Shown here one piece after another: positions 5,992 to 25,911 of a stretch of 28,737 bases of DNA. Position 1 is the stretch's first letter. Each line of letters begins with the position of its first letter. The notes under the pieces are model-generated. The model was not told where the DNA came from and ran no database searches. It saw only the letters and a program-made list of their open reading frames with translations. Location of the stretch: positions 1 through 28,737 of the IMG/VR virus record IMGVR_UViG_3300032271_001622, one strand, 5' to 3'. This DNA comes from a virus. A program made the translations under genes and the position numbers.

Positions 5992-8811
5992 TTGAGTTAT
6001 ATTGACGCTGTGTTGGAAAAAGACAAGAACCGTATATTGGTGGTGGAAAGAACTGTTGGCGGACAACGCAAAATAGTGGAATATACCACCAAGTATGAAG
6101 CCTATTGGCCTGATCCCAGAGGCAAGTACAACAGCATCTATCCCAATGTCAAGTTGAACCGATTAACTGAAACCAATGGCAGCAAGTTTCAAAAAGAAGT
6201 GCGCATGCTGCAGGGGCGTGTACACGAAGCAGACATCAATCCAGTGTTTAGATGTTTGTATGAAAACTATCGCGACAAGCCACTGGAAAACTTGCACATT
6301 GGATTTTTGGACATTGAAACGGACTTTGATCCAGTGCTGGGATTTTCTTCCACAGAAGAAGCATTCAGTCCCATTACTGCCATCACTGTGTATTGCACAT
6401 GGTTAGAGCGTAACTTTACCTTGGTGTGCAAACCCAAGACCTTGAGTGTCAAACAAGCACAAAGCATTGTGGATGAATTTGAAGACACAGTGTTGTGTGC
6501 TGATGAAAAAAGCCTGTTGGAAGCATTTCTTGTGCTGATTGAAGATGCAGACATCTTGAGCGGATGGAACAGCGAGGGATATGATATGCCCTATATCCAC
6601 AATCGCATACTCAAGATCCTGGGTCGTGATGAAACTCGCAAACTGTGCTTGTGCGGCAAACTGCCCAAAAAGCGCGAGTACGAACAGTATGGTAAAATGC
6701 AAATCACCTGGGACATTGTGGGACGAGTGCACTTGGACTACCTGCAACTGTATCGCAAACACACATATCACGAGATGCACAGTTATCGCTTGGACTTTGT
6801 GGGTGAATATGAAGTGGGTGAAAAGAAGATTCACTATGAAGGCACATTGGACCATCTCTACAACAACGACTTCAAAAAGTTTATCGAGTACAACCGACAG
6901 GACGTCATGCTCTTGGTTAAACTGGACAACAAACTCAAGTTTATTGAACTCAGCAGCAACCTTGCGCATGACAACTCGGTGCTGTTCAACACCACCATGG
7001 GTGCAGTGGCACTAATTGACCAAGCCATTGTGAATGCTGCATGGGAAAAAGAACTCAAGGTTCCGGTGCGCAAACGAGACCAAAATCAAGGTCAACAGGA
7101 AGTGGATTTTGAACAAGAACTGTATGGTCAGTTTGACATGGTGGATGATGACGACAACGATGATGAAATACGAGCCAAGATCACAGGTGTGGCTGGAGCA
7201 TATGTTGCACAGCCGCAGGTGGGACTGCATGATTGGATAGGCACCATGGACATCAACAGTCTATATCCCAGTGCAATTCGTGCACTGAACATGAGTCCAG
7301 AATCCATTGTGGGACAGCTGAGGCTCACTGCCACCAACAGCTTGATTTTCAGTCGCATGAAATTGGACAAGGCAACATTTGCTGCAGCATGGGGTGACCA
7401 ATTTGGCACCATTGAATATAGACAGGTGATGGGTCAGGACGACACAACCATCACCATTGATTTTGAAGATGGCAGTGAACTCACTGTGCCGGCTGTGGAT
7501 GTGTACAACATGATATTTGACAAAAAGAGTGATCTCATACTGAGTGCCAATGGCACCATGTACAACAAGAGCAAGGTGGGTATCATACCGGGTCTGCTGG
7601 CAGAATGGTACAGTGGTAGAAAAGTCATGCAAAAAGAATCCAAGAAATATGCACAAATGGCTGACGAACACAGGGATCAACCAGAAAAATATCAAGAGTA
7701 TAAAAAGCTGGCAGCATACTGGGATCAAAGACAGCTGATAAGAAAAATTCTCTTGAACTCCACATATGGAGCACTGGGCAATGCTGGATCTAGATGGTTC
7801 GATGCCCGGCTGGCACAAAGTACCACACTCACTGGCAGATGCATTGCCAAGCACATGCACTCCAAAACCAATGAAATCATTGCTGGCACATATGACCACA
7901 CAGGTCCAGCAATCATATATGGTGACACAGACTCCTCCATGTTTTCTGCATACAAAATCATGCGATCCATGCCCGAATTTGCCGACTTTGAGTGGACCAA
8001 GGAAAACATCACCAATCTCTATGATCAAATCACTGACATTGTGAACAACAGCTTTAGTGATTTCATGCAGGTTGCATTCAATTGCACTGCAGATCAGGGA
8101 TCAGTTATACGTGCTGGTAGAGAGCTGTGCGCAATCAAGGGTTTGTTTATCACCAAGAAACGCTATGCTGTGTTGGTGTATGACAAGGAAGGCAAGCGCA
8201 AGGATCAAAATGGTGCTGCAGGTGAAATCAAGGCCATGGGCTTGGATCTCAAGCGCAGCGACACACCCAAGCCAGTGCAAGAATTCTTGAACCAAGTGCT
8301 GGAAAAAGTGTTGACCACATATGATCAAGCTGAAATACAGGACTATATCAAGAACTTTAGAGATCAATTTCGTGATTGGGATCCCTGGCACATGGGATCA
8401 CCCAAGCGTGTGAACAATCTCACACGCTATCAGGGCATACTGGCAGAAATGCGAGACATTGACTTGAAAAATCGTGCATACAGTGGTAGAAAAACCATTC
8501 CCGGACATGTGATGGCCAGTTTGAACTGGAATCAATTGAGAACAGTGTACAATGATCATTACAGTATAAAAATACAAGATGGTGCCAAGGTCATTGTGTG
8601 CAAGCTGCGCAACAACACACATGGTATCAACAGCATTGCATACCCAGTGGATGAAATGCAGTTGCCCGATTGGTTCAAGAGGTTGCCATTTGATCGAGAA
8701 GCCATGGAAGCAGCACTTATTGACAAAAAACTTAAAAATCTATTGTCGGTGCTGGATCTAGACATCAGTGACAAAAATGACACGACATTTAATCAGCTGT
8801 TCACATTTTGA
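5992..8811 (+). CDS. 43: DNA polymerase, family B (T4 gp43-like)
   Basis: The replicative DNA polymerase, 939 residues (T4 gp43 has 898). The 3'-5' exonuclease motifs are intact: Exo I FLDIETDFD (D107, E109), Exo II GWNSEGYDMPYIHNR and Exo III YNRQDV. The polymerase motifs follow: A MDINSLYPSAI (catalytic D420), B KILLNSTYGALGN and C YGDTDS (D645, D647). It should therefore synthesise DNA and proofread. The C-terminus is where T4 gp43 contacts the clamp gp45, and a gp45-like gene lies 295 bases downstream. The start is a TTG, supported by GGAG eight bases upstream and by the lack of any ATG nearby. The weak start codon may limit expression. No intein or split is seen. Confidence 0.98.
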   Translation: MSYIDAVLEKDKNRILVVERTVGGQRKIVEYTTKYEAYWPDPRGKYNSIYPNVKLNRLTETNGSKFQKEVRMLQGRVHEADINPVFRCLYENYRDKPLENLHIGFLDIETDFDPVLGFSSTEEAFSPITAITVYCTWLERNFTLVCKPKTLSVKQAQSIVDEFEDTVLCADEKSLLEAFLVLIEDADILSGWNSEGYDMPYIHNRILKILGRDETRKLCLCGKLPKKREYEQYGKMQITWDIVGRVHLDYLQLYRKHTYHEMHSYRLDFVGEYEVGEKKIHYEGTLDHLYNNDFKKFIEYNRQDVMLLVKLDNKLKFIELSSNLAHDNSVLFNTTMGAVALIDQAIVNAAWEKELKVPVRKRDQNQGQQEVDFEQELYGQFDMVDDDDNDDEIRAKITGVAGAYVAQPQVGLHDWIGTMDINSLYPSAIRALNMSPESIVGQLRLTATNSLIFSRMKLDKATFAAAWGDQFGTIEYRQVMGQDDTTITIDFEDGSELTVPAVDVYNMIFDKKSDLILSANGTMYNKSKVGIIPGLLAEWYSGRKVMQKESKKYAQMADEHRDQPEKYQEYKKLAAYWDQRQLIRKILLNSTYGALGNAGSRWFDARLAQSTTLTGRCIAKHMHSKTNEIIAGTYDHTGPAIIYGDTDSSMFSAYKIMRSMPEFADFEWTKENITNLYDQITDIVNNSFSDFMQVAFNCTADQGSVIRAGRELCAIKGLFITKKRYAVLVYDKEGKRKDQNGAAGEIKAMGLDLKRSDTPKPVQEFLNQVLEKVLTTYDQAEIQDYIKNFRDQFRDWDPWHMGSPKRVNNLTRYQGILAEMRDIDLKNRAYSGRKTIPGHVMASLNWNQLRTVYNDHYSIKIQDGAKVIVCKLRNNTHGINSIAYPVDEMQLPDWFKRLPFDREAMEAALIDKKLKNLLSVLDLDISDKNDTTFNQLFTF

Positions 8812-9105: not shown

Positions 9106-9861
9106 ATGACTAACACAATTACCATCAAGAGCGCAGTGCAAGACTTGGTCAAGAACATTTCGTCCACTGGGTTTTTTGACAAGATCAAAATCACAGCCAC
9201 CAACCAACAGGTGCTGATCGAAGCACTGGAAAGAGAAAAGGAAGTGGTGTTCAAGGGCGAAATCAACAAGCCAGTGGACAATCTTGTGGGCGAATTTGGC
9301 TTGAGCAATCTTGGACTGCTGGGACACATCATCAACGACAGCGATTTCAACAATGCTGACAGCACACTGGCAGTCAATTATGAAACACGCAACGCACAAT
9401 CTGTGCCAGTGGAACTTGCGTACAAGAACCGCAACAGCAGTGAAATAGTTTATCGTTTCATGAGCACACAGCTGGTACCACCACAACCCAAGTTCATTGA
9501 ACCCAAGTGGGATGTGACCATTACTCCCAGCAAGACCAGTGTGCAGCAGTTTACCTGGGCGGCCAATGGCTTGAGCAGCTATGAACAATACTTTATTCCC
9601 AAGATTGTCAATCAAGAACTCAAGTTTTTCATTGGTGATGACACTGCAGCCAACCAACGAGGTGCAGTGCTGTTTGCCAGCAACACTGCTGGCAAGCTGG
9701 ATGGCAAGCACAAGTGGAAGATATCTCATCTACTGAGTGTGCTCAAGCTTGCTGACAACACTGACTGCAGCATGAGCTTTAGCAATCAGGGTGTGATACA
9801 AGTCACCATCAACACTGGACTGGGTGTGTACAAGTATATCTTTTTGGCCAAGGCAGTCTAA
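9106..9861 (+). CDS. 45: Sliding clamp, T4 gp45-like
   Basis: This 251-residue protein resembles T4 gp45 (228 residues), the trimeric ring that tethers gp43 to DNA and activates late transcription. Matching points in order are: an N-terminal helix (VQDLVKNI) followed by a strand; VDNLVGEFGLSNLGLLGHII (T4 has DLNGFLGILSLVND); the linker PPQPKFIEPKWDVTIT (T4 has PNKPIPFPVASVVTEI); FTWAANGLSSYEQYFIP (T4 has LLRVSRGLQIDTIAI); and a closing strand YKYIFLAKA (T4 has YKLLLWAKG). A strong AAGGA precedes the ATG. Identity to T4 is low, so the call rests on fold pattern, length and proximity to the polymerase. Confidence 0.82.
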   Translation: MTNTITIKSAVQDLVKNISSTGFFDKIKITATNQQVLIEALEREKEVVFKGEINKPVDNLVGEFGLSNLGLLGHIINDSDFNNADSTLAVNYETRNAQSVPVELAYKNRNSSEIVYRFMSTQLVPPQPKFIEPKWDVTITPSKTSVQQFTWAANGLSSYEQYFIPKIVNQELKFFIGDDTAANQRGAVLFASNTAGKLDGKHKWKISHLLSVLKLADNTDCSMSFSNQGVIQVTINTGLGVYKYIFLAKAV

Positions 9862-11024: not shown

Positions 11025-11218
11025 GTGATGAGATTCACGGCGAAGTCCAAATTAACGATGGTACAGGCCGGGCCCTTAAATATACCTTTACTAAAGAAGT
11101 AATAGATGGATTAATCAAGCAAGGGATTGATGTCCAAAAAGAAATTGAACAAGCATTAACACTTGCACTAGAAGAAGAAAATATTATACAAAACAACCAA
11201 GGCAAACAAACACTATGA
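11021..11218 (+). CDS. Hypothetical small acidic protein
   Basis: The 65-residue product has a short beta part (EVQINDGTGRALKYTFTKE) and an acidic C-terminal helix (DVQKEIEQALTLALEEEN). No family is recognised. GAGG lies upstream of the ATG, and ATGA overlaps join it to both neighbours. Base composition is as in the preceding gene. Confidence 0.65.
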   Translation: MSDEIHGEVQINDGTGRALKYTFTKEVIDGLIKQGIDVQKEIEQALTLALEEENIIQNNQGKQTL

Positions 11219-11592
11219 CACAAAAGACATTCGTATATTGTACCTTTCAAAAAGAAGGTTATCACTATTTCCCTGGCGCGGATAAAAATCCATTATATGC
11301 TACCGGCGATGATTATGACGTATCTCATTTAGGATATCGGCATATGCATTATTTTAATTTTAAAGTTTGGGTACAAGTTACGCACAACAATAGAGACATT
11401 GAATTCATTCAGCTTCGGCGTTGGATTGAAAAGCAATACGGTGATGGAGTTTTAGAAATAGACCACAGATCTTGCGAAATGCTTGCAGAAGATCTTTATG
11501 ATAAACTTTCTGAAAAATATCCTGGTATGGAAATCAGAATTGACGTAAGTGAAGAAGGGGTCAACGGCGCATACGTTGAATTTCTCCCATAA
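11215..11592 (+). CDS. queD: QueD/6-pyruvoyl-tetrahydropterin synthase-like T-fold protein
   Basis: The 125-residue protein follows the QueD/PTPS layout. Likely Zn-binding histidines are H17 (in EGYHYFPGA) and the HMH pair H43/H45. Next come IEFIQLRRWIEK (the DF-x-x-LK segment), LEIDHRSCEMLAEDLYDKL (the DH...PT-x-EN-x-A segment) and a final strand IRIDVSEEGVNGAYVEF. QueD turns dihydroneopterin triphosphate into 6-carboxytetrahydropterin (CPH4), the substrate of QueE, and folE and queE are downstream. The usual catalytic Cys a few residues before H-x-H is not present, because that stretch reads DYDVSHLGYR. Activity is therefore likely by context but not proven, and another pterin-related reaction is possible. 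It is the last gene of an ATGA-coupled cassette with A/T-rich codons. Confidence 0.75.
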   Translation: MTQKTFVYCTFQKEGYHYFPGADKNPLYATGDDYDVSHLGYRHMHYFNFKVWVQVTHNNRDIEFIQLRRWIEKQYGDGVLEIDHRSCEMLAEDLYDKLSEKYPGMEIRIDVSEEGVNGAYVEFLP

Positions 11593-11608
11593 TTTCATTT
11601 TTATTCAG

Positions 11609-11636
11609 TTGACATAGTTAAATAATATGCTATGTT
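11609..11636 (+). promoter_or_regulatory. Sigma70-type promoter, extended -10
   Basis: TTGACA (11609-11614), 16 bases and TATGTT (11631-11636) preceded by TGC make a strong host-type promoter for the 11660 gene. The start site near 11643 leaves a leader of about 17 bases holding AAAGGA. TTAAATAA (11618-11625) lies in the spacer. Confidence 0.6.
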
Positions 11637-11659
11637 AACTGACGGGAAAGGATACGATC

Positions 11660-12553
11660 ATGAGACAGGATCTTAACAAACTGCTGTGCGAACGCGAGCG
11701 TTTTCGTTCCCGGGATCACTACAAGAACTATCGCAAGCTCAAAAAGTTCAATGCCAAAACTGACGAAGATGATTCTGGTCGGCCTGCTCTTGAAGGCATG
11801 CGTATTCGTTATGGTTGGGACCGCAAACAGTTCAATGAAAACCTCAATCCTCTCAAGGGCATTCTTCGCAAGGCTGTGGGCAGTCCCTGGGACAAATTCT
11901 ACAGCGACCTCTGTAAAACTTTTGACATGCACAGCGTGATCAATCAACACATTCTTCAACACCTCTATGATTATATCTGCGTAGACAGTGTCAAGATCAG
12001 CGACGATGGTGAGACTTGGGTGTGTCATCATCTCTGGAGTCGCTACGAACTGCTGCAGGATAGCTATTTCTTGTACTATGTTGATCCTCGCGATGGAATC
12101 ATCAAGACTAACACCAATTACAAGACCCATCGGCAGCGCAATCGAGAGATTAATCTTCAGCGTGCTGAACATCGCAGAAAAAACAATGTCTGGATTGATA
12201 GAAAGAACATCCTGCATCAGATCGAGGGTGTTTGGTATCACTACACCTTGGAACCTGTTCCCGAAGGTCGTATCATCTATGTCAAACCGCATGGAAAAGA
12301 AGTTTTCAAGGACAGGCGAGGACGAGATGTAAGCTGGGAAAATCTTGACCATCTGTTGAAGGTTAGTCAGGGACACGCAGAGTTTGAAGGTAATGCTGCG
12401 TTTGATCTCTATACTGAACAAACTGTGTACACCAATAACAATCGCGTGTTTGCTCGGTCTGGAGATACTATTCGATTCAATAATGATTACTATCATGCTA
12501 CCAAAAAGACTGCAAGCCACAAAACTTTGAAAAAGGTTGGACTGGCCGAGTAA
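11660..12553 (+). CDS. Conserved protein of unknown function
   Basis: This 297-residue basic protein is hydrophilic with no membrane segment. The most conserved-looking region is LKGILRKAVGSPWDKFYSDL (about residues 68-87) followed by VINQHILQHLYDYICVD. I recall this 'G-x-PWDK-x-YS-x-I/L' family from bacterial accessory regions and phages, but without a known role. The middle is rich in Arg and Lys (HRQRNREINLQRAEHRRKNN), compatible with nucleic-acid binding. It has its own strong promoter and a very good AAAGGA ribosome site. Codon use differs from the flanking phage genes (more CTC, CGC and ATC), so horizontal acquisition is plausible. A long antisense frame covers it but is judged a shadow. 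Confidence 0.75.
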   Translation: MRQDLNKLLCERERFRSRDHYKNYRKLKKFNAKTDEDDSGRPALEGMRIRYGWDRKQFNENLNPLKGILRKAVGSPWDKFYSDLCKTFDMHSVINQHILQHLYDYICVDSVKISDDGETWVCHHLWSRYELLQDSYFLYYVDPRDGIIKTNTNYKTHRQRNREINLQRAEHRRKNNVWIDRKNILHQIEGVWYHYTLEPVPEGRIIYVKPHGKEVFKDRRGRDVSWENLDHLLKVSQGHAEFEGNAAFDLYTEQTVYTNNNRVFARSGDTIRFNNDYYHATKKTASHKTLKKVGLAE

Positions 12554-12673
12554 TAGTATTTGACTCGAAGAAAATGTCTGTAATCTAGAATTCTTTTTTG
12601 TGCATGTAGGCATCATGCATGAATGCAGATACAAAATGAAAAGACAACATCTTCCAGACATTTTCATAAATTT
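12554..12673. other. Intergenic stretch before the glycosyltransferase gene
   Basis: I find no gene here. A 6-base inverted repeat TGCATG/CATGCA with a 7-base loop lies near 12602-12622. The T-run lies before it rather than after, so it is not a good rightward terminator. Confidence 0.4.
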
Positions 12674-12703
12674 TTGACTATCCTCTGCAGTACCATGTAT
12701 AAT
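12674..12703 (+). promoter_or_regulatory. Sigma70-type promoter of the modification block
   Basis: TTGACT (12674-12679), 18 bases and a perfect TATAAT (12698-12703) lie before the glycosyltransferase gene. The start site is near 12710, and a strong AGAGGA precedes the ATG. It could drive the glycosyltransferase and dpdA together. Confidence 0.65.
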
Positions 12704-12729
12704 AAGCAGTACGTGTAAGAGGAAATACA

Positions 12730-13911
12730 ATGTCTTTTAGAAAACTGGGTTATGTGTGTTTGGAAAAATATGAAGGTCGCTATACCTTGCAATTGCAAGA
12801 GTGGAACGAACAGGTGTTTCAACGCCGCGGTATTGATTATGTTGTGGTTGATGGTGAAACACTGGACACCAGTCAAAGCATTGTGACTGGCCAAGTACTG
12901 GACGCACATGGTAGAAGCTATTTCTCACTCACACAGATGGCCAACTTGGTGCGCATGCTCAAGCAAGGCGTGTTCAACAGAGAAGACGTGCTGTATTTTG
13001 AAGACATGTTCACTCCCGGTATTGAAAGTTTGCCTTATATCTTTGATCAAATTCCCGCACAGTATCGACCCATGGTGGCAGTGCGTTGTCTAGCACAAAG
13101 CATTGATCCAGATGACTTTGTGCATGTGTGGGGCATGCAGCAGTGGATGGCCACATATGAACGCATGGTAAATGAATTTGCAGACATAATACTGGCCAGC
13201 AACGAAGAAATGGTCTCTCACATGCGCATAGCTGGATGGACAGCACCCATTTATAACATTGCTGGTTTGGCATTTGGACGAAGCGAAGTGCAAGGTCGAG
13301 TCAGTGAAATCAAGCCGTTTGATCAAAAACGCCCGCGTGTGGCATTTGCATCCAGATGGGATCAAGAAAAGAATCCTGACTTTTTCATGGACTTAATTGA
13401 AGCATGGTATCTCAAGCATCCCGGCAGCACAGTGGAGTTTGCACTGTTTTCAGGATCCAAGCTCAAGTCAAACAATGTGTCTTACATGGCACGAACTCAA
13501 GATCTTGCCCATCGAGGTCAATTGGCCATATACGAAGATCTCAAAAAGAACGAATACTATGAACTGCTGAACGATTCGCGAGTGCTGTTTAACTCTGCCA
13601 GCCAAGACTGGACTTCCAACACAGTGAGCGAAGCTGATGCACTGGGAGCAAATGTGTTGTTCCCAGCATATAGATCGTTTCCAGAAATATTTGCCAATGA
13701 TGCTGAGCGCATGTATGTGCCCTGGTCCATGGATGATGCACTGGCCAAGCTGGAAAAACTGTTGCAACAGCCGCATGCCAACATGGGCAAGATCAGCACT
13801 TGGACAGATGGCACAGTGGATCGAATACTGGATATTTTGATGGGACAGGGCGAATGCTGGAATAGATCATCAACAGACTATAGAAAGTATTTGCTGGAAA
13901 ACAAATACTAG
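12730..13911 (+). CDS. GT-B (GT4-like) glycosyltransferase
   Basis: The 393-residue protein has a two-domain GT-B outline. The N-terminal half carries acceptor-side Rossmann elements, and IILASNEEMVSHMRIAGW is the usual 'ladder' before the linker. The C-terminal half has ASRWDQEKNPDFF (R209 and K214 in the donor-phosphate region) and NSASQDWTSNTVSEADALG, which aligns with the EX7E motif of retaining GT4 enzymes. Here the first Glu is an Asp (D293) and E301 is kept. The protein should move a sugar from a nucleotide donor. The acceptor is not evident. The gene directly precedes dpdA by 34 bases, so a modified DNA base is an attractive acceptor, by analogy with T4 glucosylation of hydroxymethylcytosine. 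That is inference; a virion or host-surface acceptor is also possible. Confidence 0.85.
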   Translation: MSFRKLGYVCLEKYEGRYTLQLQEWNEQVFQRRGIDYVVVDGETLDTSQSIVTGQVLDAHGRSYFSLTQMANLVRMLKQGVFNREDVLYFEDMFTPGIESLPYIFDQIPAQYRPMVAVRCLAQSIDPDDFVHVWGMQQWMATYERMVNEFADIILASNEEMVSHMRIAGWTAPIYNIAGLAFGRSEVQGRVSEIKPFDQKRPRVAFASRWDQEKNPDFFMDLIEAWYLKHPGSTVEFALFSGSKLKSNNVSYMARTQDLAHRGQLAIYEDLKKNEYYELLNDSRVLFNSASQDWTSNTVSEADALGANVLFPAYRSFPEIFANDAERMYVPWSMDDALAKLEKLLQQPHANMGKISTWTDGTVDRILDILMGQGECWNRSSTDYRKYLLENKY

Positions 13912-13945
13912 TATACTATCGCAACACAATCCGGAAAGAAACACA

Positions 13946-15583
13946 GTGTTTAACTTTAACAATAATTTGTCCAAGAATACTGCTGCTAGAGATTTCAGTG
14001 TATCTCAGCAGGACTATGCTGTGTTCTTGCCCAGCATCAGTGCCATTTACGCTTATATTGTCAGCATGGACACATACAAAATGCGTGACCAGTTGCCAGC
14101 AGGATTGGCCAATGGATTGAAGGATCTAGATTTTCTTGATCCCATGAACAGCATGTTTTATTATCCTGCTGCACTGTACAGTGCTGGTCATGCAGTGCTG
14201 GATGTCAATGAATCGTACACTGCTGAACGCATGATACAACAGCGTGATCGTGCCAACACTGTGATGGTGGGTGATAGTGGAGGATTCCAAGCAGCAACTG
14301 GTGTGCTGAAATTTCCCTGGACTGCCAAGAAAAATCAGTCTGCACAAGACCATGCACAGGATCAAGATGCATTTCGCATGCAGATTCTCAAATGGTTAGA
14401 AGCCACTGCAGACTACAGCATGCTGTTGGATTGGCCGCCATTCAGCATGACCAAGGCAGGATTTGATCCCACCACTGGTATCAGTTATCATCCAGGCTTG
14501 AAAAGTTTTGCTGACTGCTTGAATGGCACACTGGAAAATCACAAATTCTTTATCAAACATCGCACTCCTGGTGCCACCAAGTTCATGAACGTGCTGCAGG
14601 GACTCAACATCACAGAGGGTGACATTTGGTGGGAAGCTGTAAAAGACTTGCCCTTTGAAGCTTGGGCATTTGGTGGATTTCAAGGACACAACTTTGCTTT
14701 CAACATTCGCAGACTCATCATCATGCGCGACACTGGATACTTGCAGGGTAGAGAATGGTTGCACTATCTTGGCAACGGCAAGGTCAAAGCTGCTTGTGCC
14801 ATGACCACACTGCAGCGCACTTTGAGAAAGCATGTGGATCCAGAACTCACCATCAGCTTTGATGCTGCCAGTCCATTTGTGATGACAGCCAAGGGGCAAA
14901 TCTACTATGGTCAGTTGCACTCGCCCAACAAGCTGGGATTCAAGGGCGGCAGCATGCCCGATGACAAAAATTTCAAAGGGTCCAAGCTGTTGCTCAATGA
15001 CTGGATTGCACAAATGAGCGGTGCTGCTACAGATGTGCGTTCAAGAATGGGAGACAGTGTCTCGCTGGGAGACATCTGTGTGCGAGGTTATCAAGATCTT
15101 GAATACAAGAAAATTGCCTGGAGCAAAAAAGAACTGCAAGATGGCACATATGCTTGCAGTCCAGAAGCAGCAGCAAATGATCGATTCAAATGGACTCGTG
15201 CCTACAAAGAATATCTCACGCACAGTGTGCACAATGGAGGTGCATTTGATTTTGGTAATCAGGACTTTGCACTGGAATATGAAAAGTATCAAGTGAAATG
15301 GCCCAGCAGCATGGATGGATTCAGTTATTTGCTGGCCATGAATCACAACACTGAAATACACATCAATGCCATTCAAGCAGCTTGCCATTGGCAGGATCAA
15401 CCACTTCATATAGCAACCAATTATATCCCACAAGACTTGTTGGAATTCAAAGATATTTGTGAAGAAATTTTCACAAGTGAAACTCCCATGGACATTATCA
15501 ACAGACACGAAGTGTTGCTGCGCAACATCACGGGTATTGATGCCGAAATGAGCATGAGCATTGATTTGGACAGTTTGGCGTAG
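13946..15583 (+). CDS. dpdA: DpdA-like DNA-guanine transglycosylase (TGT paralog)
   Basis: This 545-residue protein belongs to the TGT-like superfamily. The substrate-binding DSGGFQ motif is at D110, a GGFQGH element (near residue 248) stands where TGT has its GGLAVGE loop, and SFDAASPF places D306 as the probable nucleophile (FDC-x-x-PTR in TGT). The Zn site (CxCxxC...H) of bacterial tRNA TGT is not visible, and the protein is much longer than tRNA TGT (about 375 residues). Phage DpdA enzymes exchange guanine in DNA for 7-deazaguanine bases and protect the genome from restriction. folE and queE downstream and a QueD-like gene upstream supply the precursor. The start is GTG, with GGAAAG eight bases before. 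The long C-terminal region (residues 370-545) has no recognised domain. Confidence 0.88.
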   Translation: MFNFNNNLSKNTAARDFSVSQQDYAVFLPSISAIYAYIVSMDTYKMRDQLPAGLANGLKDLDFLDPMNSMFYYPAALYSAGHAVLDVNESYTAERMIQQRDRANTVMVGDSGGFQAATGVLKFPWTAKKNQSAQDHAQDQDAFRMQILKWLEATADYSMLLDWPPFSMTKAGFDPTTGISYHPGLKSFADCLNGTLENHKFFIKHRTPGATKFMNVLQGLNITEGDIWWEAVKDLPFEAWAFGGFQGHNFAFNIRRLIIMRDTGYLQGREWLHYLGNGKVKAACAMTTLQRTLRKHVDPELTISFDAASPFVMTAKGQIYYGQLHSPNKLGFKGGSMPDDKNFKGSKLLLNDWIAQMSGAATDVRSRMGDSVSLGDICVRGYQDLEYKKIAWSKKELQDGTYACSPEAAANDRFKWTRAYKEYLTHSVHNGGAFDFGNQDFALEYEKYQVKWPSSMDGFSYLLAMNHNTEIHINAIQAACHWQDQPLHIATNYIPQDLLEFKDICEEIFTSETPMDIINRHEVLLRNITGIDAEMSMSIDLDSLA

Positions 15584-15622
15584 TACACTATATTTGATAA
15601 CAAACAGGGAACAATAAACGCA

Positions 15623-16144
15623 ATGAAACGCATGTACACACAGGGAGAGCACAGCGACACTGTGTTCTTTGTTGGTCGCGAAGTTGAACATACTCCTGCA
15701 CATGGTGAAAAAACACTGTTTGTGGTGGGAGTGCATGTGCTGGATGCACACATCGAGGACATACTGCTGAGAGCCAAAATCAATAACTGCACCCACATCT
15801 ATTGCGGTGCCAATCAAAGTTTTGTTCCCAGTTCTCACTGGGAGCACATGGTAACCCAGCTGCTGAAACAATTCTCAGGCATGGTCACACTGGATTTTGA
15901 TCATGCGCACTGTGCCTGGGTCATTGAATCAGGCTTTTGTGAATATCAAAATTTTATACCACAACTGTCAATTAAATTGCCATATGCACAACTGCTAGGC
16001 TATAATGCTACTATCAAGATTGATGATGCTGGCTTCAATGCAAGCAATCCCGGAGTATGGTGTCATCAATTGCACAACCTAATGGATCGGGCACAATTCA
16101 CTGCCTGGCAAGAATACAGCAAGGATGAAATTTTACCACCATGA
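15623..16144 (+). CDS. Conserved phage protein of the deazaguanine block, unknown function
   Basis: The 173-residue protein reads as an alpha/beta domain. Its N-terminus (YTQGEHSDTVFFVGREVEHTP, residues 5-25) and C-terminal part (FIPQLSIKLPYAQLLGYN, then IKIDDAGFNASNPGVWCH) are the kind of long, ungapped conserved blocks I recall in T4-like marine phages, often near folE/queE. No catalytic signature that I know is present, although the acidic pairs (TLDFDH, KIDD) and His/Cys residues could form a metal site. AGGGA precedes the ATG. It overlaps the next gene by ATGA. Its position between dpdA and folE makes it a candidate for deazaguanine synthesis or regulation. Confidence 0.8.
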   Translation: MKRMYTQGEHSDTVFFVGREVEHTPAHGEKTLFVVGVHVLDAHIEDILLRAKINNCTHIYCGANQSFVPSSHWEHMVTQLLKQFSGMVTLDFDHAHCAWVIESGFCEYQNFIPQLSIKLPYAQLLGYNATIKIDDAGFNASNPGVWCHQLHNLMDRAQFTAWQEYSKDEILPP

Positions 16145-16398
16145 CCATCAGCAAAAAAACCGTCGAAGAACTCACCAATGATGAACTTGAAAACCTCAAG
16201 ATTGAATTTTCTCCGGGCTGCTTTGACAGCTTTGAAGGCACACAGCAGCAGCTGGACGAGCTTGTGGAAGAAATCACTCGCATGATCAAATCTGGCGAGT
16301 TTGTCAATGGTTCGTCTAGCGAAATTGAATTCATTGAGCTTGATATCGAAGATGCAGAAGACTATTTGGATCTAGATCAGGGTAGAACCATTCAATGA
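16141..16398 (+). CDS. Small acidic conserved phage protein
   Basis: The 85-residue, very acidic protein contains LTNDELENLKIEFSPGCFDSFEGTQ followed by QLDELVEEITRMI, a pattern I recognise as a small conserved family of T4-like phages without known function. The acidic tail (IEFIELDIEDAEDYLDLD) could mimic nucleic acid or bind a basic partner, which is inference. It overlaps both neighbours by ATGA, so it is translated with them. Confidence 0.75.
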   Translation: MTISKKTVEELTNDELENLKIEFSPGCFDSFEGTQQQLDELVEEITRMIKSGEFVNGSSSEIEFIELDIEDAEDYLDLDQGRTIQ

Positions 16399-16874
16399 CC
16401 ACAGTTGCCAACACTGCAGTTGTAGACACATCAAGAGAAAACTATGTTGCACGATGGCGTGCACTCAAAGATCAGTATGCCATGTACCAGGAACAAATAA
16501 ATGCACTGGAAAGACTCAAGAGTGAAATTCACACTCGAGGTGCTGAACTGATAACACAGTACGAACACATGCGAGCCATCATCACCATCATGGCATTGGA
16601 AAACATTGACCCCGTGCAGGCTGAACTGCGGCATGGCACTGATGACATAGTTAAAAATTTGAAAACCAATGCCACAGGCGTCTACAATGGTATTGGACTA
16701 AATTCTTCAATCAACAACAATTTGTATGTGCCCAATCAGACACATAATTTATTTCACATCAGTGACATTTATTCACACAACAACCAACTTGACTCGGCCA
16801 TTAGATATAGTTTGCAATCGCACACCATGTCATGCAACAATTCAATTAACAGATATCATCAAGGAAATCTTTAG
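16395..16874 (+). CDS. Hypothetical protein with N-terminal coiled coil
   Basis: The 159-residue product has a helical N-terminal half (residues 15-75, likely coiled coil) and a polar, Asn- and Ser-rich C-terminal half with no regular structure evident. No family is recognised. It begins in an ATGA overlap and ends 3 bases before folE, so it belongs to the same transcription unit. Confidence 0.65.
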   Translation: MTTVANTAVVDTSRENYVARWRALKDQYAMYQEQINALERLKSEIHTRGAELITQYEHMRAIITIMALENIDPVQAELRHGTDDIVKNLKTNATGVYNGIGLNSSINNNLYVPNQTHNLFHISDIYSHNNQLDSAIRYSLQSHTMSCNNSINRYHQGNL

Positions 16875-16877
16875 ACC

Positions 16878-17573
16878 ATGACAGTACAACACACTCCCAT
16901 TAGCGAAATCATTCGCAACAGACTGCTGAATTCTGACGACGACAGTAGATTTTTTGCCAATGACAATATTTCTCATGCTATCCTACCTGGTGAGCTTGAT
17001 CAGCTGGTCGACGAAGTTGCTGAGCAAATGCAACATGTGCTAAAAAGCCTAGTGATTGATGTGGAAAACGACCACAACACCCGAGACACTGCACGCCGAG
17101 TGGCCAAAATGTATATCACGGAAACATTCAGTGGCAGATATCGTCCAGTGCCCACAGTCACTGCATTTCCCAACATGGGCTATAAAAGCTTGTACACCAC
17201 TGGTCCCATCAGTGTGCGCAGCACATGTGCTCACCATTTGCAAAATGTGGTGGGCAAGTGCTGGGTGGGTATTGTGCCTGAGCATGATGTAATTGGTTTG
17301 AGCAAGTTCAATAGACTGGTGCATCACATTTGCGAACGTCCGCAAATTCAAGAAGAAATGACCACACAGATTGCCGAAGCACTGCAGGAATATGCCAAGA
17401 CCGAGCATGTGGCAGTGGTGGTCAAGGCCGAACACTTTTGCATGACCCAGCGAGGTGTGCGCGAGCACGAATCAGACATGACCACTGCAATCATGCTGGG
17501 TGCATTCCTTAGTGATCCTGCTCTCAAAAAGGAATTCTATGACATTTGCCTGAGCATGAAGGGTCATAGATAA
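16878..17573 (+). CDS. folE: GTP cyclohydrolase I
   Basis: This 231-residue FolE converts GTP to 7,8-dihydroneopterin triphosphate, the first step of both folate and 7-deazaguanine synthesis. Zn ligands are in place: C117 and H120 in STCAHHLQNVVGK, and C188 in EHFCMTQRGVREHES. RDTARRVAKMYIT and GLSKFNRLVHHICERPQIQE match the conserved core. The length is close to the bacterial enzyme (222 in E. coli). The N-terminal 40 residues are variable, as usual. AAGGA lies upstream. Next to dpdA and queE, its product should feed deazaguanine rather than folate, and a phage copy could lift supply during infection. Confidence 0.95.
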   Translation: MTVQHTPISEIIRNRLLNSDDDSRFFANDNISHAILPGELDQLVDEVAEQMQHVLKSLVIDVENDHNTRDTARRVAKMYITETFSGRYRPVPTVTAFPNMGYKSLYTTGPISVRSTCAHHLQNVVGKCWVGIVPEHDVIGLSKFNRLVHHICERPQIQEEMTTQIAEALQEYAKTEHVAVVVKAEHFCMTQRGVREHESDMTTAIMLGAFLSDPALKKEFYDICLSMKGHR

Positions 17574-17584
17574 AGGTTATCAAC

Positions 17585-18136
17585 ATGCTGGATCTTGACA
17601 ACAACACAGCAACACACAGTAACTTGGTGGTGGGCGGCGGGTACACGAGCACGGACATTTCATCCCTGTCCATGAGCACAAGTGGGCACACATCTGCCAA
17701 CATTGTGAGCATACCATCAAGCACTGTGTATGCCGCAACTGGATCCATCAGTGCCGGTGGTATGAGTTTTAACAGCTCAACCACTAACATTGCCATGATT
17801 TCCATCCACAGCAATCGCAAAGACAAAGACGATGTGTTCATGGAAATCAACAATGCCTGCGGTAATCGTTTGCTGGAGATCACCAACAATGGGCAGGTAC
17901 GCTGGCTGGGCAATGCTGGCGAAGCTGCCGACCATTTGGTAAAACAGCTCATGACCAGCATCAACAAACAGGCTGTGACCAATCGAGCTCGAGAACAATT
18001 TGAATTAGCTGTGGCCAAACAGCTATTATTGTTGGTAGAGTCTGCAGCATCCATGGATCAATTGCAGCAGCATCTCGAGGATATCATTTCTCAACATGAA
18101 TCCCACATTGTTGAACGAATATTAACAGAACTATAA
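17585..18136 (+). CDS. Conserved hypothetical protein between folE and queE
   Basis: The 183-residue protein has a Ser/Thr-rich N-terminal 60 residues. A small beta unit follows (MISIHSNRKDKDDVFMEI...LLEITNNGQVRWLGNAGEAADHLVKQL), then a helical C-terminus. The middle resembles short phage proteins that pair a 'LEI-x-x-NG-x-V-x-W' hairpin with a helix; function unknown. The ATG follows folE by 11 bases with AAAGG, and queE follows by 11 bases, so it is firmly inside the operon. The N-terminal part looks like a linker or surface-exposed tail. Confidence 0.7.
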   Translation: MLDLDNNTATHSNLVVGGGYTSTDISSLSMSTSGHTSANIVSIPSSTVYAATGSISAGGMSFNSSTTNIAMISIHSNRKDKDDVFMEINNACGNRLLEITNNGQVRWLGNAGEAADHLVKQLMTSINKQAVTNRAREQFELAVAKQLLLLVESAASMDQLQQHLEDIISQHESHIVERILTEL

Positions 18137-18147
18137 AAAGGAACAGT

Positions 18148-19023
18148 ATGTTTGGTAAAAATGAAATTGTTGGATTAAAGTATTTCAAGGACCGTGCAGC
18201 AGATGTGATGTTTGTCACCAGCATGTTCATGACCTTGCAAGGCGAAGGACCATTTAGAGGAGAGCCAGCATTTTTTATTAGACTGGCCAAGTGCAATCTT
18301 GCCTGCAGCTTCTGCGATACCTTCTTTGATGACGGCGATTGGATGACTTTCGACGAAATTGAACAGGCTATTGACAAAACCATCAATGACTATTTTGATG
18401 GTGAAGTTCCAGCATATGCACAATACACCCTCAATGAGGATGCTCAGCATCGGCGACAGATGGTGTTGGTCATGACTGGTGGAGAACCCATGTTGCACAC
18501 CAATATTGGTGCATTTTTATCACGCATGGAACAGGTGTTTGCGCACACTCAAATTGAAAGCAACGGCACACTGGTACAAGACATTCCCAACAGCACAGTG
18601 CTGGTGGTGAGTCCCAAGTGTGCTGAAAAAAATGGTGTAGTGCTCAAGTATTTGGTACCCAAGGAAGAAATGTTAGCACGTGCCAGCTGTCTCAAGTTTG
18701 TGATGTCAGCTGATCCCACAAGCCCCTACAGCAGCATACCAGACTGGGCACATGAGTGGCAAGTGGCCACTGGTAAACCAGTTTATATCAGTCCCATGAA
18801 CATGTATAATACTCATCCACAGCGCAGCAAGCAGTTGAGGTCTGAGAAAAACAGCATAAGTATTCAAGAACGCAGCACAGTTGACGAAGTGATTTCTTTT
18901 TGGGAACCAGGTTTGTTGAACATGCAGGAAAATCAGCTCAACCATGAGTACACTGCAAGATTTTGTGTACAACATGGATACACGCTGAATCTTCAGTTGC
19001 AACTGTATGCAAGTTTGGCCTAA
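18148..19023 (+). CDS. queE: 7-carboxy-7-deazaguanine synthase, radical SAM
   Basis: QueE rearranges 6-carboxytetrahydropterin to 7-carboxy-7-deazaguanine (CDG). The radical SAM cluster motif is CNLACSFC (C49, C53, C56, CX3CX2C), preceded by the QueE hallmark LQGEGPFRGEPAFFIRLAKC. MTGGEPML is the GGE motif that binds SAM, and ESNGTLV and SPKC follow as in the family. At 291 residues it is longer than typical QueE (about 210-250), with an insert near residues 70-105 between the cluster and GGE. AAGGA precedes the ATG. It is downstream of folE in the same run of genes. Confidence 0.95.
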   Translation: MFGKNEIVGLKYFKDRAADVMFVTSMFMTLQGEGPFRGEPAFFIRLAKCNLACSFCDTFFDDGDWMTFDEIEQAIDKTINDYFDGEVPAYAQYTLNEDAQHRRQMVLVMTGGEPMLHTNIGAFLSRMEQVFAHTQIESNGTLVQDIPNSTVLVVSPKCAEKNGVVLKYLVPKEEMLARASCLKFVMSADPTSPYSSIPDWAHEWQVATGKPVYISPMNMYNTHPQRSKQLRSEKNSISIQERSTVDEVISFWEPGLLNMQENQLNHEYTARFCVQHGYTLNLQLQLYASLA

Positions 19024-20858: not shown

Positions 20859-20933
20859 TACCAATGGTTAAACAAATTGGTATGTTGCGTAAATAATACT
20901 GCAAAAGTAAATCGCAAAATTGAGTACGCAACA
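20859..20933 (+). promoter_or_regulatory. Two consecutive inverted repeats in the leader of the PAS gene
   Basis: TACCAAT (20859-20865) and ATTGGTA (20876-20882) can form a 7-bp stem with a 10-base loop. Directly after it, TGTTGCGT (20883-20890) and ACGCAACA (20926-20933) form a perfect 8-bp stem with a 35-base loop. The second stem ends on the base before the ATG at 20934. They could act as an RNA switch over the start codon or as protein-binding sites. No T-run follows, so a simple terminator is unlikely. Confidence 0.5.
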
Positions 20934-21659
20934 ATGTCCAGCAATCACATTGAAAACTTTGTTATATCAAATCTTGACACCATTCTCAAGGTTGTGCCAG
21001 CTGTGGCTGGTGTTGTGGCTGCCTTGTTCAACCCTCAAGTGAGAAAGTTATTTGATTTTATAATTACCCCAACTGTGTCAGTGTTCAAATGGTTGTTTTA
21101 CCCATTTAGACTGCCATTCATCATCATGCAGCAAAACACACAGATACTCAAAGAATTGTATCCCAATGGCGGAGGCAGCTTGCGAGATGCCATCAACCAG
21201 CTGAACATGCGACAAACCATGATCAATGATCGTTTGCTCAACATCATGGACCATGACAAAACTCCCATCTTTGAAACTGATGCTGGTGGTTCCATTGTGT
21301 GGGTCAACAATGCCTATATCATTGTGACCGGTCGTCCCATGCAAGAGCTGCTGGGTTACGGTTGGATCAATGGAGTATACGAACCCGATAGAGAGCGTGT
21401 GAGCACTCAATGGGATCTAGCAATTGATGAGAAACGCACCTTTGAATTGACATATTCTTATCAAAACATTGACGGATCAGTATACACTGCATTTGTGCGA
21501 GCAACACCAGTGCGCAGCAGCGGACAATTGGTGGGCTGGACTGGATATGTCACACTGCTGGATGTGAATCCTCCAGAAAGCGGGCAACCCACTGAAGCAG
21601 TGACCTATTCCATACAGCATCTCAACATTGTGAAAAGCGGCAAAAAAACTGCTGACTAA
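20934..21659 (+). CDS. Membrane-anchored PAS domain protein
   Basis: The 241-residue protein has a hydrophobic N-terminal segment (residues 16-33, TILKVVPAVAGVVAALF) and a second amphipathic or membrane stretch near 45-66 (SVFKWLFYPFRLPFIIM). A helix leads into a PAS/PAC domain at about 110-215: TPIFETDAGGSIVWVNNAYIIVTG, then LLGYGWINGVYEPDRERV, TFELTYSYQNIDGSVYTAFVRATPV and LVGWTGYVTLLD. PAS domains sense ligands, redox or partners. No kinase, cyclase or other output domain follows, so signalling would be through dimerisation or binding. The start at 20934 is chosen because earlier frames lack a ribosome site. PAS proteins are not a usual part of T4-like genomes. Its leader has striking inverted repeats. 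Confidence 0.85.
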   Translation: MSSNHIENFVISNLDTILKVVPAVAGVVAALFNPQVRKLFDFIITPTVSVFKWLFYPFRLPFIIMQQNTQILKELYPNGGGSLRDAINQLNMRQTMINDRLLNIMDHDKTPIFETDAGGSIVWVNNAYIIVTGRPMQELLGYGWINGVYEPDRERVSTQWDLAIDEKRTFELTYSYQNIDGSVYTAFVRATPVRSSGQLVGWTGYVTLLDVNPPESGQPTEAVTYSIQHLNIVKSGKKTAD

Positions 21660-23382: not shown

Positions 23383-25911
23383 ATGCAACTACCAACATGG
23401 ATTACAACCGGTAATCTTGGCACATATTCAAATAGCTACAATTTCAACACCAACAATTTGGTGTTGACTTACGATGCCAGTGATGTTGCCAAGGTCAAGC
23501 TATTGAATGGATCCATACCCAGTGGGTTGGTAGCCGATGTAACACCTGGCCAAATCACCATTACTGGACAGAGCAATCAGACTGAGAGCAGCAACAACGA
23601 ATTCACATATCGCATAACCGACCAGGGCATGATTGCTGATAGAACATTTCAGCTACAATTGGTCTCTGCAAGTCCAGTGCCCAACTGGAGCAAACAACCA
23701 AGATTTTTGGGATATGCGTACAGCAATCAACATGATGCTCAATTTCAAGTTACAGCTGAAGTCACTGGCACCCTGCCAATCACATACACGCTTCTACCGG
23801 TAGTACCGGGCACTACCTTGCCAACTGGCATGAGCATCAACAGCAAGAGTGGTGTGATCAATTATTCTCCCGGAGTGGTATTTTATGACGAATTGGTCAC
23901 AGTAGTAGTGTCTGCCACCAGCGGCAACAGTGTGGCCAACATTGAATTGAGCATACAGTTGTTGTCTGTTCCGCATGCACCGGTGTGGAGTACACCCAGC
24001 GGCAACTTGACCACAATTCAACGTTCGAGATTCATTCAGCTTCAGCTGGAAGCTTTTAGTCCTGGTGTGGTCAATTCGGTTGCACAGTCTTCTGTGCATT
24101 ATTTTATATCGTCTGGTGCATTACCTCCAGGACTGTCACTGACATCAAGTGGATTGATACATGGATATACTCCCACCGTATACGGCGAAACTGTTTATAA
24201 TTTTTCAGTAACTGTCTCAAACAATGTGGGTAGTGCAACTGAATATTTTTCCATCACAGTTGTGGTTGGAAATATTTCGGCTATATTTGCATGGAACAGC
24301 AGCACCACTGATTTTGGCACTGTCACTGATGGCAACATCTATGTGTTTGATGCCGGCGCCGCCAGTGCTAGAACCAGGTTGATCAATTACAGCCTCACTG
24401 GTGGCATACTGCCCATGAACATGACCTTGGACCCCATACAGGGTAAAATATATGGATATGTGGAATTCCACACTCGTGACCGAGATTATGTGTTTGAAAT
24501 CACAGCATCTGACGGGGTTGACCGTTTGGTACGACAATACAGAATCACTGTGGTGCAACGTGCATACGATCAATATCTCACTGTGAGCATCCCTCTCAGT
24601 GGCAGCAATCTTAAAAATCTCTGGGCAGGAGATATTGGTGCAATCATGGACACTCGCATCATGATTCCCAACAGTGATGTAATACCGGGCATTGTCAATT
24701 ACCCTGAACTAACACTGATCAGTGGCTTGAGTTATGCCAATCAAAACATTGATGATCTTTACAACAACATCAAATACACACTGAAACCCATCACTGTGTC
24801 CATGGGACAGGTCAGCAACAGTGCAATTATCCACAATCAGAGCAGCATATATCGAGAAATCGCTGATCCTCAATCACTGGGCATGGACAATGTGGTGATT
24901 GATGGTAACACAGTGTCCATATCCAGTTTGCACAACTGGCGCAACAGCATCAGTAAATTTTTACCATATGTAGCCAGTGGTTTGGGCACAGCAGCCAGAT
25001 TGTCTCCCTTGATATCTGCCGGGGACGGCACCATAACTTCAGTATATGTGGTCGAAACAGGATATGGTTATTATTATCCCCCGCAGCTGACTGTGCAGGG
25101 CACAGGCACAGGTGCTGCATGCACATGTGACCTCAAAGTGGTTGCATATCAAAACATCGTGAGCGAGCAAGGCTGGGTGGTCGGCGACACAGTGTCCATA
25201 ACATTTGGCAGATACACTCGTGCTGCAGTGTTGAAGGTTTCAAAAGTGGACAACATTGGCAATATCGTTGCATTGGAAATTCTTGATGGCGGCGCATATA
25301 CTCAATTCCCACAAGGATCAAAAACCATCATACGCAACAACACTGGATACACCTGTTTGGTGCAGTTGCAATTGGGCATCAACACTGTGACAGTAACAAC
25401 TGCAGGTAGTGGTTACGCTGTGGACAACACCACTGTGGATGCACTGGGTAGAGAATTTTTACCCAATTGGACCAACAGCTGGATACCGTATTTGCCCATT
25501 GCCACCATTAGCAGCAGCAGTTTATCCACGTTTGCTGAAAACAATGTATACAACAACACGCATGACCTAGATGGTCAGCTGTGGCCCATCAACAGTGCCA
25601 TAATTGATCTACAGGGTCGTACCTGGCTGGGCGATACCGAGTTTGACTGCAGCTTTGATAACGACAGTACTCATTTGTCAGATTCCAGAGAACCAATGGA
25701 AACAGTGTTTGACCAAAATCAGTTGGTGTTTGATCACACCCATACCACATTTGACACACAGGTACATGCTGCTCTCACAGTTTATGATGCATGGAGCACA
25801 GTGGTGGTAGATCACACTGTGCCCATCGTGGACATGAACCAAACCATATTTGACTTGGCAAGTCCTGCATTATACAGTCAAACCCGATTGAGAAGAATAA
25901 TCACCTTCTAA
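23383..25911 (+). CDS. Large Ig-like repeat protein, probable tail fibre or virion surface protein
   Basis: The 842-residue protein starts with four putative Ig (He_PIG/cadherin-like) repeats. Their signature turn, LP-x-G-x-S/T-[IL]-x(4)-G-x-I, falls near residues 45, 146, 247 and 342, about 100 residues apart. Residues 400-560 form an unassigned domain. Residues 560-700 are beta-rich with GYGYYYPP and GSGYAVD turns, like fibre or baseplate-associated modules. The C-terminus (about 770-830) has degenerate short repeats (TVFDQN, LVFDHT, TTFDTQ, TVYDAW, TIFDLA) that resemble trimeric-fibre ends. The late promoter upstream fits a structural role. A host-binding fibre is most likely; a baseplate or head decoration protein cannot be excluded. 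It converges on the macro domain gene with one base between. Confidence 0.8.
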   Translation: MQLPTWITTGNLGTYSNSYNFNTNNLVLTYDASDVAKVKLLNGSIPSGLVADVTPGQITITGQSNQTESSNNEFTYRITDQGMIADRTFQLQLVSASPVPNWSKQPRFLGYAYSNQHDAQFQVTAEVTGTLPITYTLLPVVPGTTLPTGMSINSKSGVINYSPGVVFYDELVTVVVSATSGNSVANIELSIQLLSVPHAPVWSTPSGNLTTIQRSRFIQLQLEAFSPGVVNSVAQSSVHYFISSGALPPGLSLTSSGLIHGYTPTVYGETVYNFSVTVSNNVGSATEYFSITVVVGNISAIFAWNSSTTDFGTVTDGNIYVFDAGAASARTRLINYSLTGGILPMNMTLDPIQGKIYGYVEFHTRDRDYVFEITASDGVDRLVRQYRITVVQRAYDQYLTVSIPLSGSNLKNLWAGDIGAIMDTRIMIPNSDVIPGIVNYPELTLISGLSYANQNIDDLYNNIKYTLKPITVSMGQVSNSAIIHNQSSIYREIADPQSLGMDNVVIDGNTVSISSLHNWRNSISKFLPYVASGLGTAARLSPLISAGDGTITSVYVVETGYGYYYPPQLTVQGTGTGAACTCDLKVVAYQNIVSEQGWVVGDTVSITFGRYTRAAVLKVSKVDNIGNIVALEILDGGAYTQFPQGSKTIIRNNTGYTCLVQLQLGINTVTVTTAGSGYAVDNTTVDALGREFLPNWTNSWIPYLPIATISSSSLSTFAENNVYNNTHDLDGQLWPINSAIIDLQGRTWLGDTEFDCSFDNDSTHLSDSREPMETVFDQNQLVFDHTHTTFDTQVHAALTVYDAWSTVVVDHTVPIVDMNQTIFDLASPALYSQTRLRRIITF

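Follow-up and report, generated by a model that had tools for sequence, protein, structure and literature searches.

A 7-deazaguanine gene block without QueC, with a QueD paralogue and a linked glycosyltransferase, in a viral fragment and its phage relatives

The window analysed here, a 28,737-base fragment of a virus record (IMG/VR IMGVR_UViG_3300032271_001622), carries a block of genes predicted to place a 7-deazaguanine base in DNA. A 125-amino-acid (aa) open reading frame (ORF), a 545-aa transglycosylase-like ORF, FolE and QueE lie on the plus strand and span 7.8 kb (11215–19023), together with a glycosyltransferase (GT) and a conserved 173-aa protein (P173). FolE, QueD and QueE lead to 7-carboxy-7-deazaguanine (CDG), which QueC turns into preQ0 (PMC13329287), and DpdA swaps 7-deazaguanine for guanine in DNA (PMC6884629). 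The same set is met again in about 200 further viral contigs of IMG/VR, so its grouping is not due to chance. A preliminary description of this DNA had grouped the four ORFs named first, and they lie where it had placed them; the part that does not stand is its "QueD-like" protein, which is not QueD, and it had missed GT and P173.

The 125-aa protein, here called smallT, belongs to phrog_17812 (E=8e-25), a family without assigned function, and matched neither Pfam PTPS (PF01242) at E 0.1 nor any NCBIfam model. Its AlphaFold2 model (pLDDT 95) presents a beta-beta-alpha-alpha-beta-beta T-fold, closest in the PDB to E. coli QueD 4ntk (Foldseek E 7.8e-5) and to other PTPS proteins; the VIA comparison with 4ntk gave a Z of 11.2 over 108 residues at 2.5 A. 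The hhalign match between smallT and phage QueD is weak (E 7.7e-5) and covers only 41 columns in the C-terminal half, so the argument for a QueD fold rests on structure. Since PDB sequence profiles gave nothing significant for DpdA, smallT and GT, folds and profile-profile comparisons were used for these proteins.

To compare the active sites, 48 smallT proteins were aligned with 8 phage QueDs. All eight QueDs have the catalytic Cys before HxH, which is Leu in 48/48 smallT, and the Asp-His dyad of QueD is missing from every smallT as well. smallT retains the HxH histidines and two glutamates, with Ser-Cys-Glu replacing the motif around the first glutamate. Residues H17, H43, H45, S86-C87-E88 and E113 are strictly conserved in 156 sequences, and in all 48 aligned members the histidine triad is of a metal (Zn) type and the Cys beside the base-anchoring Glu is invariant. 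A separate, true QueD gene (PF01242) is present in nearly all smallT phages, although D479 gives weak matches and Roos gives no match; the window itself has none. The 125-aa protein can thus no longer be called QueD: smallT is a QueD paralogue, a T-fold protein without the QueD catalytic residues.

No QueC-like ATPase had been seen in the preliminary description, and none is found in the window. The absence of a gene from a fragment is uninformative alone, so the point was tested in relatives. Whole-genome searches of smallT phages, one per kind, found full-length QueC in 0/12. The complete genomes of Paride, Acidovorax ACP17, Synechococcus BUCT-ZZ01, Xanthomonas X1 and Sinorhizobium Phosso carry the same gene set, with no full-length QueC. 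Nor was one found with PF06508 in 50 long IMG/VR contigs, or in the flanks of the IMG/VR loci with a QueC profile, which was a weak single-sequence one. Partial matches came from D479 (a degenerate SGIDS protein), from X1 (an NAD-synthase-like protein) and from PP-loop proteins of 205–221 aa, some of them beside a radical SAM gene; none resembles the QueC of the pathway, and all are probably something else. The PP-loop ATPases of this length in phages of this group (L269, L270 and L295) carry SGGxDS and CxxCxxC beside a radical SAM gene; they are weakly QueC-like and probably form a separate system.

In a six-frame tblastn search of 50,697 phage records, smallT was found in 27, which do not include nt-1, KVP40, Moby, 9g or Vibrio phage 2.275.O. 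Of these five absent phages, the DpdA phages 2.275.O, nt-1, Moby and 9g carry QueC; smallT and QueC are mutually exclusive among the phages checked. A local swap is seen within one DpdA2 family, where Stenotrophomonas phage Moby presents FolE-QueC-DpdA2-QueE, whereas ACP17 presents QueD-FolE-P173-DpdA2-GT-smallT-QueE. Three types of DpdA are accompanied by smallT, namely that of the window subfamily, DpdA2 and, assigned by motif, a shorter one (phiST, Chryseobacterium MA9V-3 and others). Because the smallT phages lack QueC and the QueC-bearing DpdA phages lack smallT, we propose that smallT behaves as a QueC replacement. These results support the earlier view that the 7-deazaguanine block is a QueC-less one, whose base would then differ from plain preQ0.

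The GT ORF of the window falls under the cut-off for Pfam Glycos_transf_1 and Glyco_trans_1_2, and its assignment comes through the family: 8 of 21 members match PF00534 (best E 3.4e-7), and the relative in X1 exceeds the Pfam cut-off (45.5 bits). The donor-site residues R209, K214 and E301 are invariant, and the window protein is 63% identical to one of Synechococcus phage BUCT-ZZ01. In the latter phage a second, different glycosyltransferase is located directly before DpdA2 (L019:6007–7350).

The linkage of GT to the other genes was assessed by separate IMG/VR scans with smallT, DpdA and GT, which gave hundreds of loci each (at least that many for smallT and DpdA), the best 80 of each being kept. 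Each scan recovers the other module genes; where a locus spans 19.5 kb or more, smallT and GT are both present in 21/21, 26/28 and 34/34 for the three scans. Transglycosylase, smallT and GT occur together in about 200 loci, and the order DpdA-P173-smallT-GT-FolE-QueE is shown by 62 loci. DpdA2 is present in 70 phage records, and smallT and GT are found in the same four only (ACP17 twice, X1 and BUCT-ZZ01), a count that is suggestive only, as these represent few lineages. GT belongs to the module, and, unseen in the preliminary description, it is likely to change the end product.

Genes for sugar supply are frequent beside GT. An NDP-sugar epimerase (PF01370, 184 bits) occurs in 109 GT loci, 75 of which have it immediately downstream of GT; a cytidylyltransferase (57 loci), a UDP-glucose/GDP-mannose dehydrogenase (57) and a phosphomannomutase (27) are also found nearby. 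By clustering of neighbour ORFs, 133/213 GT loci have at least one sugar-nucleotide gene. In Iyer 2021 (PMC7824862), sugar-nucleotide genes of jumbo phages and cyanophages are attributed to surface polysaccharides, so that the sugar genes are taken as support and not as proof. The position of the epimerase right after GT, inside the deazaguanine block, is a stronger point than their presence. The complete carriers ACP17, X1 and BUCT-ZZ01 contain no thymidylate synthase/hydroxymethylase homologue (PF00303), so the known hydroxymethyl-pyrimidine route is missing from them, and hydroxymethylcytosine or hydroxymethyluracil as the target of GT is disfavoured. A phosphoribosyltransferase (PF00156) is located near the module in L071 (14467–15003) and 122 other loci (121/213 GT loci), and an annotated xanthine-guanine phosphoribosyltransferase adjoins QueE in BUCT-ZZ01 (L019:4090–4551); such an enzyme could salvage the guanine displaced from DNA by DpdA.

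The 545-aa transglycosylase presents the TGT motifs DSGGFQ-110, LDWP-161, NVLQG-215, HYLGNG-273 and ISFDAAS-303, and residues D110, D162 and D306 are invariant in 35 relatives. It matched no Pfam, PHROG or NCBIfam model. The profile of its subfamily matches by hhalign (E=3.7e-8, probability 95%) a DpdA2 profile that includes YP_008125322, the nt-1 DpdA2 named in Hutinet 2019 (PMC6884629), and DpdA2 matches E. coli TGT at E 2e-6 by profile comparison. The 13 relatives in the phage collection belong to the Paride/PA5oct group of Pseudomonas jumbo phages (31%), Vibrio phage 2.275.O and Sinorhizobium phage Phosso; a megablast of the window against the collection gave no match, and no near-identical phage is present there. 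On its motifs and profile match, the protein is classed as a divergent DpdA-type enzyme, predicted to exchange bases on DNA.

FolE and QueE are readily assigned. FolE matches PF01227 with 157.5 bits (cut-off 27, E=3e-46) and the PHROG GTP cyclohydrolase (7e-51), with the metal-site residues Cys117, His119-His120 and Cys188 conserved. QueE matches the PHROG QueE-like family (E=4e-46) and conserves C49-C53-C56 (CX3CX2C) and GGEP; its best match to the NCBIfam QueE models (E 7e-20) is under the equivalog cut-off. P173 is present in 200 loci, conserves the motifs FFxGxExExTP, GANQSF and KIDD, and gave a confident AlphaFold2 model (pLDDT 94) for which Foldseek returned no significant match. It weakly resembles QueE (VIA Z 5.8), and kinship is not claimed; its profile matched none of the candidate neighbours in X1, Phosso, BUCT-ZZ01 and L289.

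Table 1. Genes of the 7-deazaguanine block and the upstream DNA polymerase in the window
Feature	Position	Strand	Basis or remark
Phage DNA polymerase	5992..8811		Upstream of block
smallT, QueD paralogue of T-fold (phrog_17812)	11215..11592	+	PHROG, AlphaFold2, Foldseek, VIA, alignment
297-aa ORF between smallT and GT	11660..12553	+	No Pfam/PHROG match
GT4-like glycosyltransferase (GT)	12730..13911	+	Pfam Glycos_transf_1 / Glyco_trans_1_2 via family members
Divergent DpdA-type DNA guanine transglycosylase (jumbo-phage subfamily), 545 aa	13946..15583	+	TGT motifs, profile match
P173, conserved 173-aa protein	15623..16144	+	Recurrence in 200 loci
FolE, GTP cyclohydrolase I	16878..17573	+	Pfam PF01227, PHROG
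QueE, CDG synthase	18148..19023	+	PHROG QueE-like, CX3CX2C

A virion protein and an exonuclease are encoded downstream of the block, and Paride has the same gene order as the window from the DNA polymerase through the exonuclease. Between the DNA polymerase and DpdA, a 251-aa protein (phrog_12062, 9106–9861) is kept in 210 loci and is also found in Paride and Vibrio phage 2.275.O. A PAS-domain protein (20877–21659) and an 842-aa Ig-domain (He_PIG) protein (23383–25911) are both downstream of the block. In Paride, two distinct QueD-type proteins have a ClpX-like ATPase between them (L013:40495–43257).

The scan of prokaryote genomes gave 15 loci, several on phage-like contigs. A compact GT-smallT-DpdA-QueD operon is found in three Magnetospirillum genomes and one Rhodospirillaceae metagenome-assembled genome (L284:6835–10917, L283, L285, L286, L287), and in M. 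aberrantis (L284) an integrase, a HEPN protein and a CoiA-type nuclease are encoded close to the operon, which is possibly a bacterial self-marking or defence island. FolE and QueE are outside this block, so the host would supply both. All three Magnetospirillum genomes have a full QueC (252 bits in the host of one island), and the retention of smallT where host preQ0 is available argues that the product of smallT is not preQ0. In archaeal contigs (Methanosarcinales and Methanoperedenaceae; L290:2880–7457, L291:3741–8261), smallT accompanies QueD-QueE-FolE, with no DpdA or GT found nearby, and the family may also serve a pathway other than that of DNA.

Taken together, we lean towards a QueC-independent DNA-modification module in which CDG is processed by smallT, inserted by DpdA and glycosylated by GT. 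CDG would be made by FolE, QueE and a QueD encoded elsewhere in the genome; smallT, instead of QueC, would process it into a base other than preQ0, most likely by removal of the carboxyl group. The divergent DpdA would then exchange this base for guanine in DNA, and GT would add a sugar before or after the insertion, yielding a glycosylated 7-deazaguanine; in many relatives, NDP-sugar enzymes encoded by the phage would feed GT. A fuller statement, which we hold more tentatively, is that both the phages and the Magnetospirillum island build a glycosylated 7-deazaguanine, with smallT replacing QueC, DpdA inserting the base and the GT4-like enzyme decorating it, possibly through a C-C bond at C7.

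Several points weigh against this module as drawn. The modification is predicted from the genes: gene content and linkage, the lack of QueC in relatives, the smallT fold with its lost QueD residues and the DpdA motifs are read from the sequences, whereas what smallT acts on and yields, the sequence of steps, the action of GT on the inserted base and the final base are inferred. Decarboxylated CDG would lack the hydroxyl, carboxyl or amine side chain that ordinary O- or N-glycosylation uses, and because plain 7-deazaguanine offers no usual handle, C7, N2 or the carboxyl of unprocessed CDG are the candidate sites for the sugar. The profile of the window DpdA matches E. coli TGT alone only marginally (E 9.5e-4), and 5 of the 50 long contigs contain weak, partial QueC-like PP-loop ORFs over the cut-off, at up to 25 bits. 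The IMG/VR loci are akin to one another and do not count as independent cases. In several phages (phiST, Ahp1, D479 and MA9V-3) smallT is found with no GT, so GT is not obligatory, and the window itself has no NDP-sugar gene.

Other explanations share part of this evidence. DpdA might insert CDG itself, leaving plain dCDG in the DNA, with smallT as a CDG-binding carrier or feeder of DpdA and with GT either esterifying the CDG carboxyl with a sugar or playing a secondary part. In its favour, CDG is what QueE produces and a QueC step after it is missing, the carboxyl would be a handle for GT, and CDG was already proposed for the QueC-less phage Bipper (Hutinet 2019, PMC6884629). The histidine triad and the invariant Cys found throughout the aligned smallT proteins nevertheless look like those of an enzyme and not of a carrier, and we consider this explanation unlikely, though worth keeping in view. 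The preliminary description had also allowed for a QueC supplied by the host, in which case the DNA would contain dPreQ0, smallT would be a decayed QueD and GT would act on lipopolysaccharide, capsule or another target. Hosts often have QueC, and their participation was discussed by Hutinet 2019 (PMC6884629); polysaccharide clusters with NDP-sugar and GT genes are known in cyanophages and jumbo phages (PMC7824862). This possibility is weakened by the mutual exclusion of smallT and QueC among the phages checked and by the Magnetospirillum island, where smallT, GT and DpdA occur in a host that has a full QueC. Moreover, the phages carry their own FolE, QueD and QueE but smallT in the place of QueC, the smallT residues are strictly conserved, and GT is found in DpdA2 phages only together with smallT. 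We judge a role of host QueC improbable.

The phage DNA glycosyltransferases known so far have hydroxymethyl-pyrimidines as targets, which counts for a module of two independent parts, a QueC-less 7-deazaguanine and a GT decorating a different base, for example cytosine or uracil in hydroxymethylated form. The T4 glycosyltransferase acts on a hydroxymethyl-pyrimidine (PMC13216743). The lack of a PF00303 enzyme for such pyrimidines in three complete GT phages and the placement of GT within the deazaguanine block at almost all loci leave this separation equally improbable. Finally, QueC could lie outside the sequenced fragment of the window phage, giving dPreQ0 or dG+, since the known part of its genome amounts to just 28.7 kb and Vibrio phage 2.275.O, of the same DpdA subfamily, has QueC. 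That phage, however, has neither smallT nor such a GT, and every relative checked that has both, as the window does, is without full-length QueC. The whole-genome searches of complete relatives thus argue against the earlier suggestion of a QueC elsewhere in the genome, which we regard as very improbable.

If the QueC-independent module is confirmed, a hypermodified guanine that is chemically new in type is present in a large set of phages not recognised until now, comprising several hundred IMG/VR contigs as well as Paride and PA5oct. A QueC-independent branch would be added to 7-deazaguanine biosynthesis, a family of QueD paralogues would gain an enzymatic role, and base replacement and DNA glycosylation would be joined in phage protection, as a new chemical disguise against bacterial defences that cut DNA. 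New tools for DNA labelling could also follow. Paride, a P. aeruginosa phage, kills dormant cells. The readings above are directly testable, as laboratory strains such as P. aeruginosa PAO1 and Synechococcus elongatus PCC 7942 are hosts of module-bearing phages.

QueC-less phages, with the CDG proposal for Bipper (PMC6884629), and a deazaguanine system in PA5oct (PMC7824862) are already known. The dPreQ0 and dG+ systems of phages 9g and nt-1 (Hutinet 2019, PMC6884629) resemble the window module in having FolE, QueE (with QueD elsewhere) and a DpdA-type transglycosylase, and the DpdA2 of nt-1 is a distant relative of the window enzyme (E 3.7e-8). The window module differs in having no QueC, in the QueD paralogue and GT found instead, and in a DpdA subfamily of which no description was found in the literature searched. 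The absence of QueC is reportedly common also to the dCDG and dDG phages described by Cui in 2023, which are said to include Cellulophaga phage phiST; in this phage, the smallT family adjoins FolE, QueE and QueD. That description reportedly names DpdL as a predicted CDG decarboxylase, and it is not known to cover GT, NDP-sugar genes or the DpdA subfamily of the window.

The Arenbergviridae PA5oct and Paride are closer in layout: DpdA, GT, smallT and QueE are in one block without QueC, as in the window, and FolE, which is inside the block in the window, is in Paride about 54 kb off together with two true QueDs. The system for deazaguanine synthesis and incorporation in PA5oct was noted by Iyer 2021 (PMC7824862), in whose passages found here neither the replacement of QueC nor the link to GT appears. 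A search for a link between a glycosyltransferase and phage 7-deazaguanine found none in the literature covered, most subscription papers being outside it. We know of no sugar-bearing deazaguanine base in DNA. The T4-type DNA glucosyltransferases are alike in that a phage GT is proposed to decorate modified bases after replication; the window GT differs in family (GT4-like) and in base, with no hydroxymethylase homologue in three complete carriers. In tRNA, queuosine is glycosylated to mannosyl- and galactosyl-queuosine, a case of a glycosyltransferase acting on 7-deazaguanine in a nucleic acid; the window GT, which would act on DNA instead, is likened to these eukaryotic enzymes by its predicted function.

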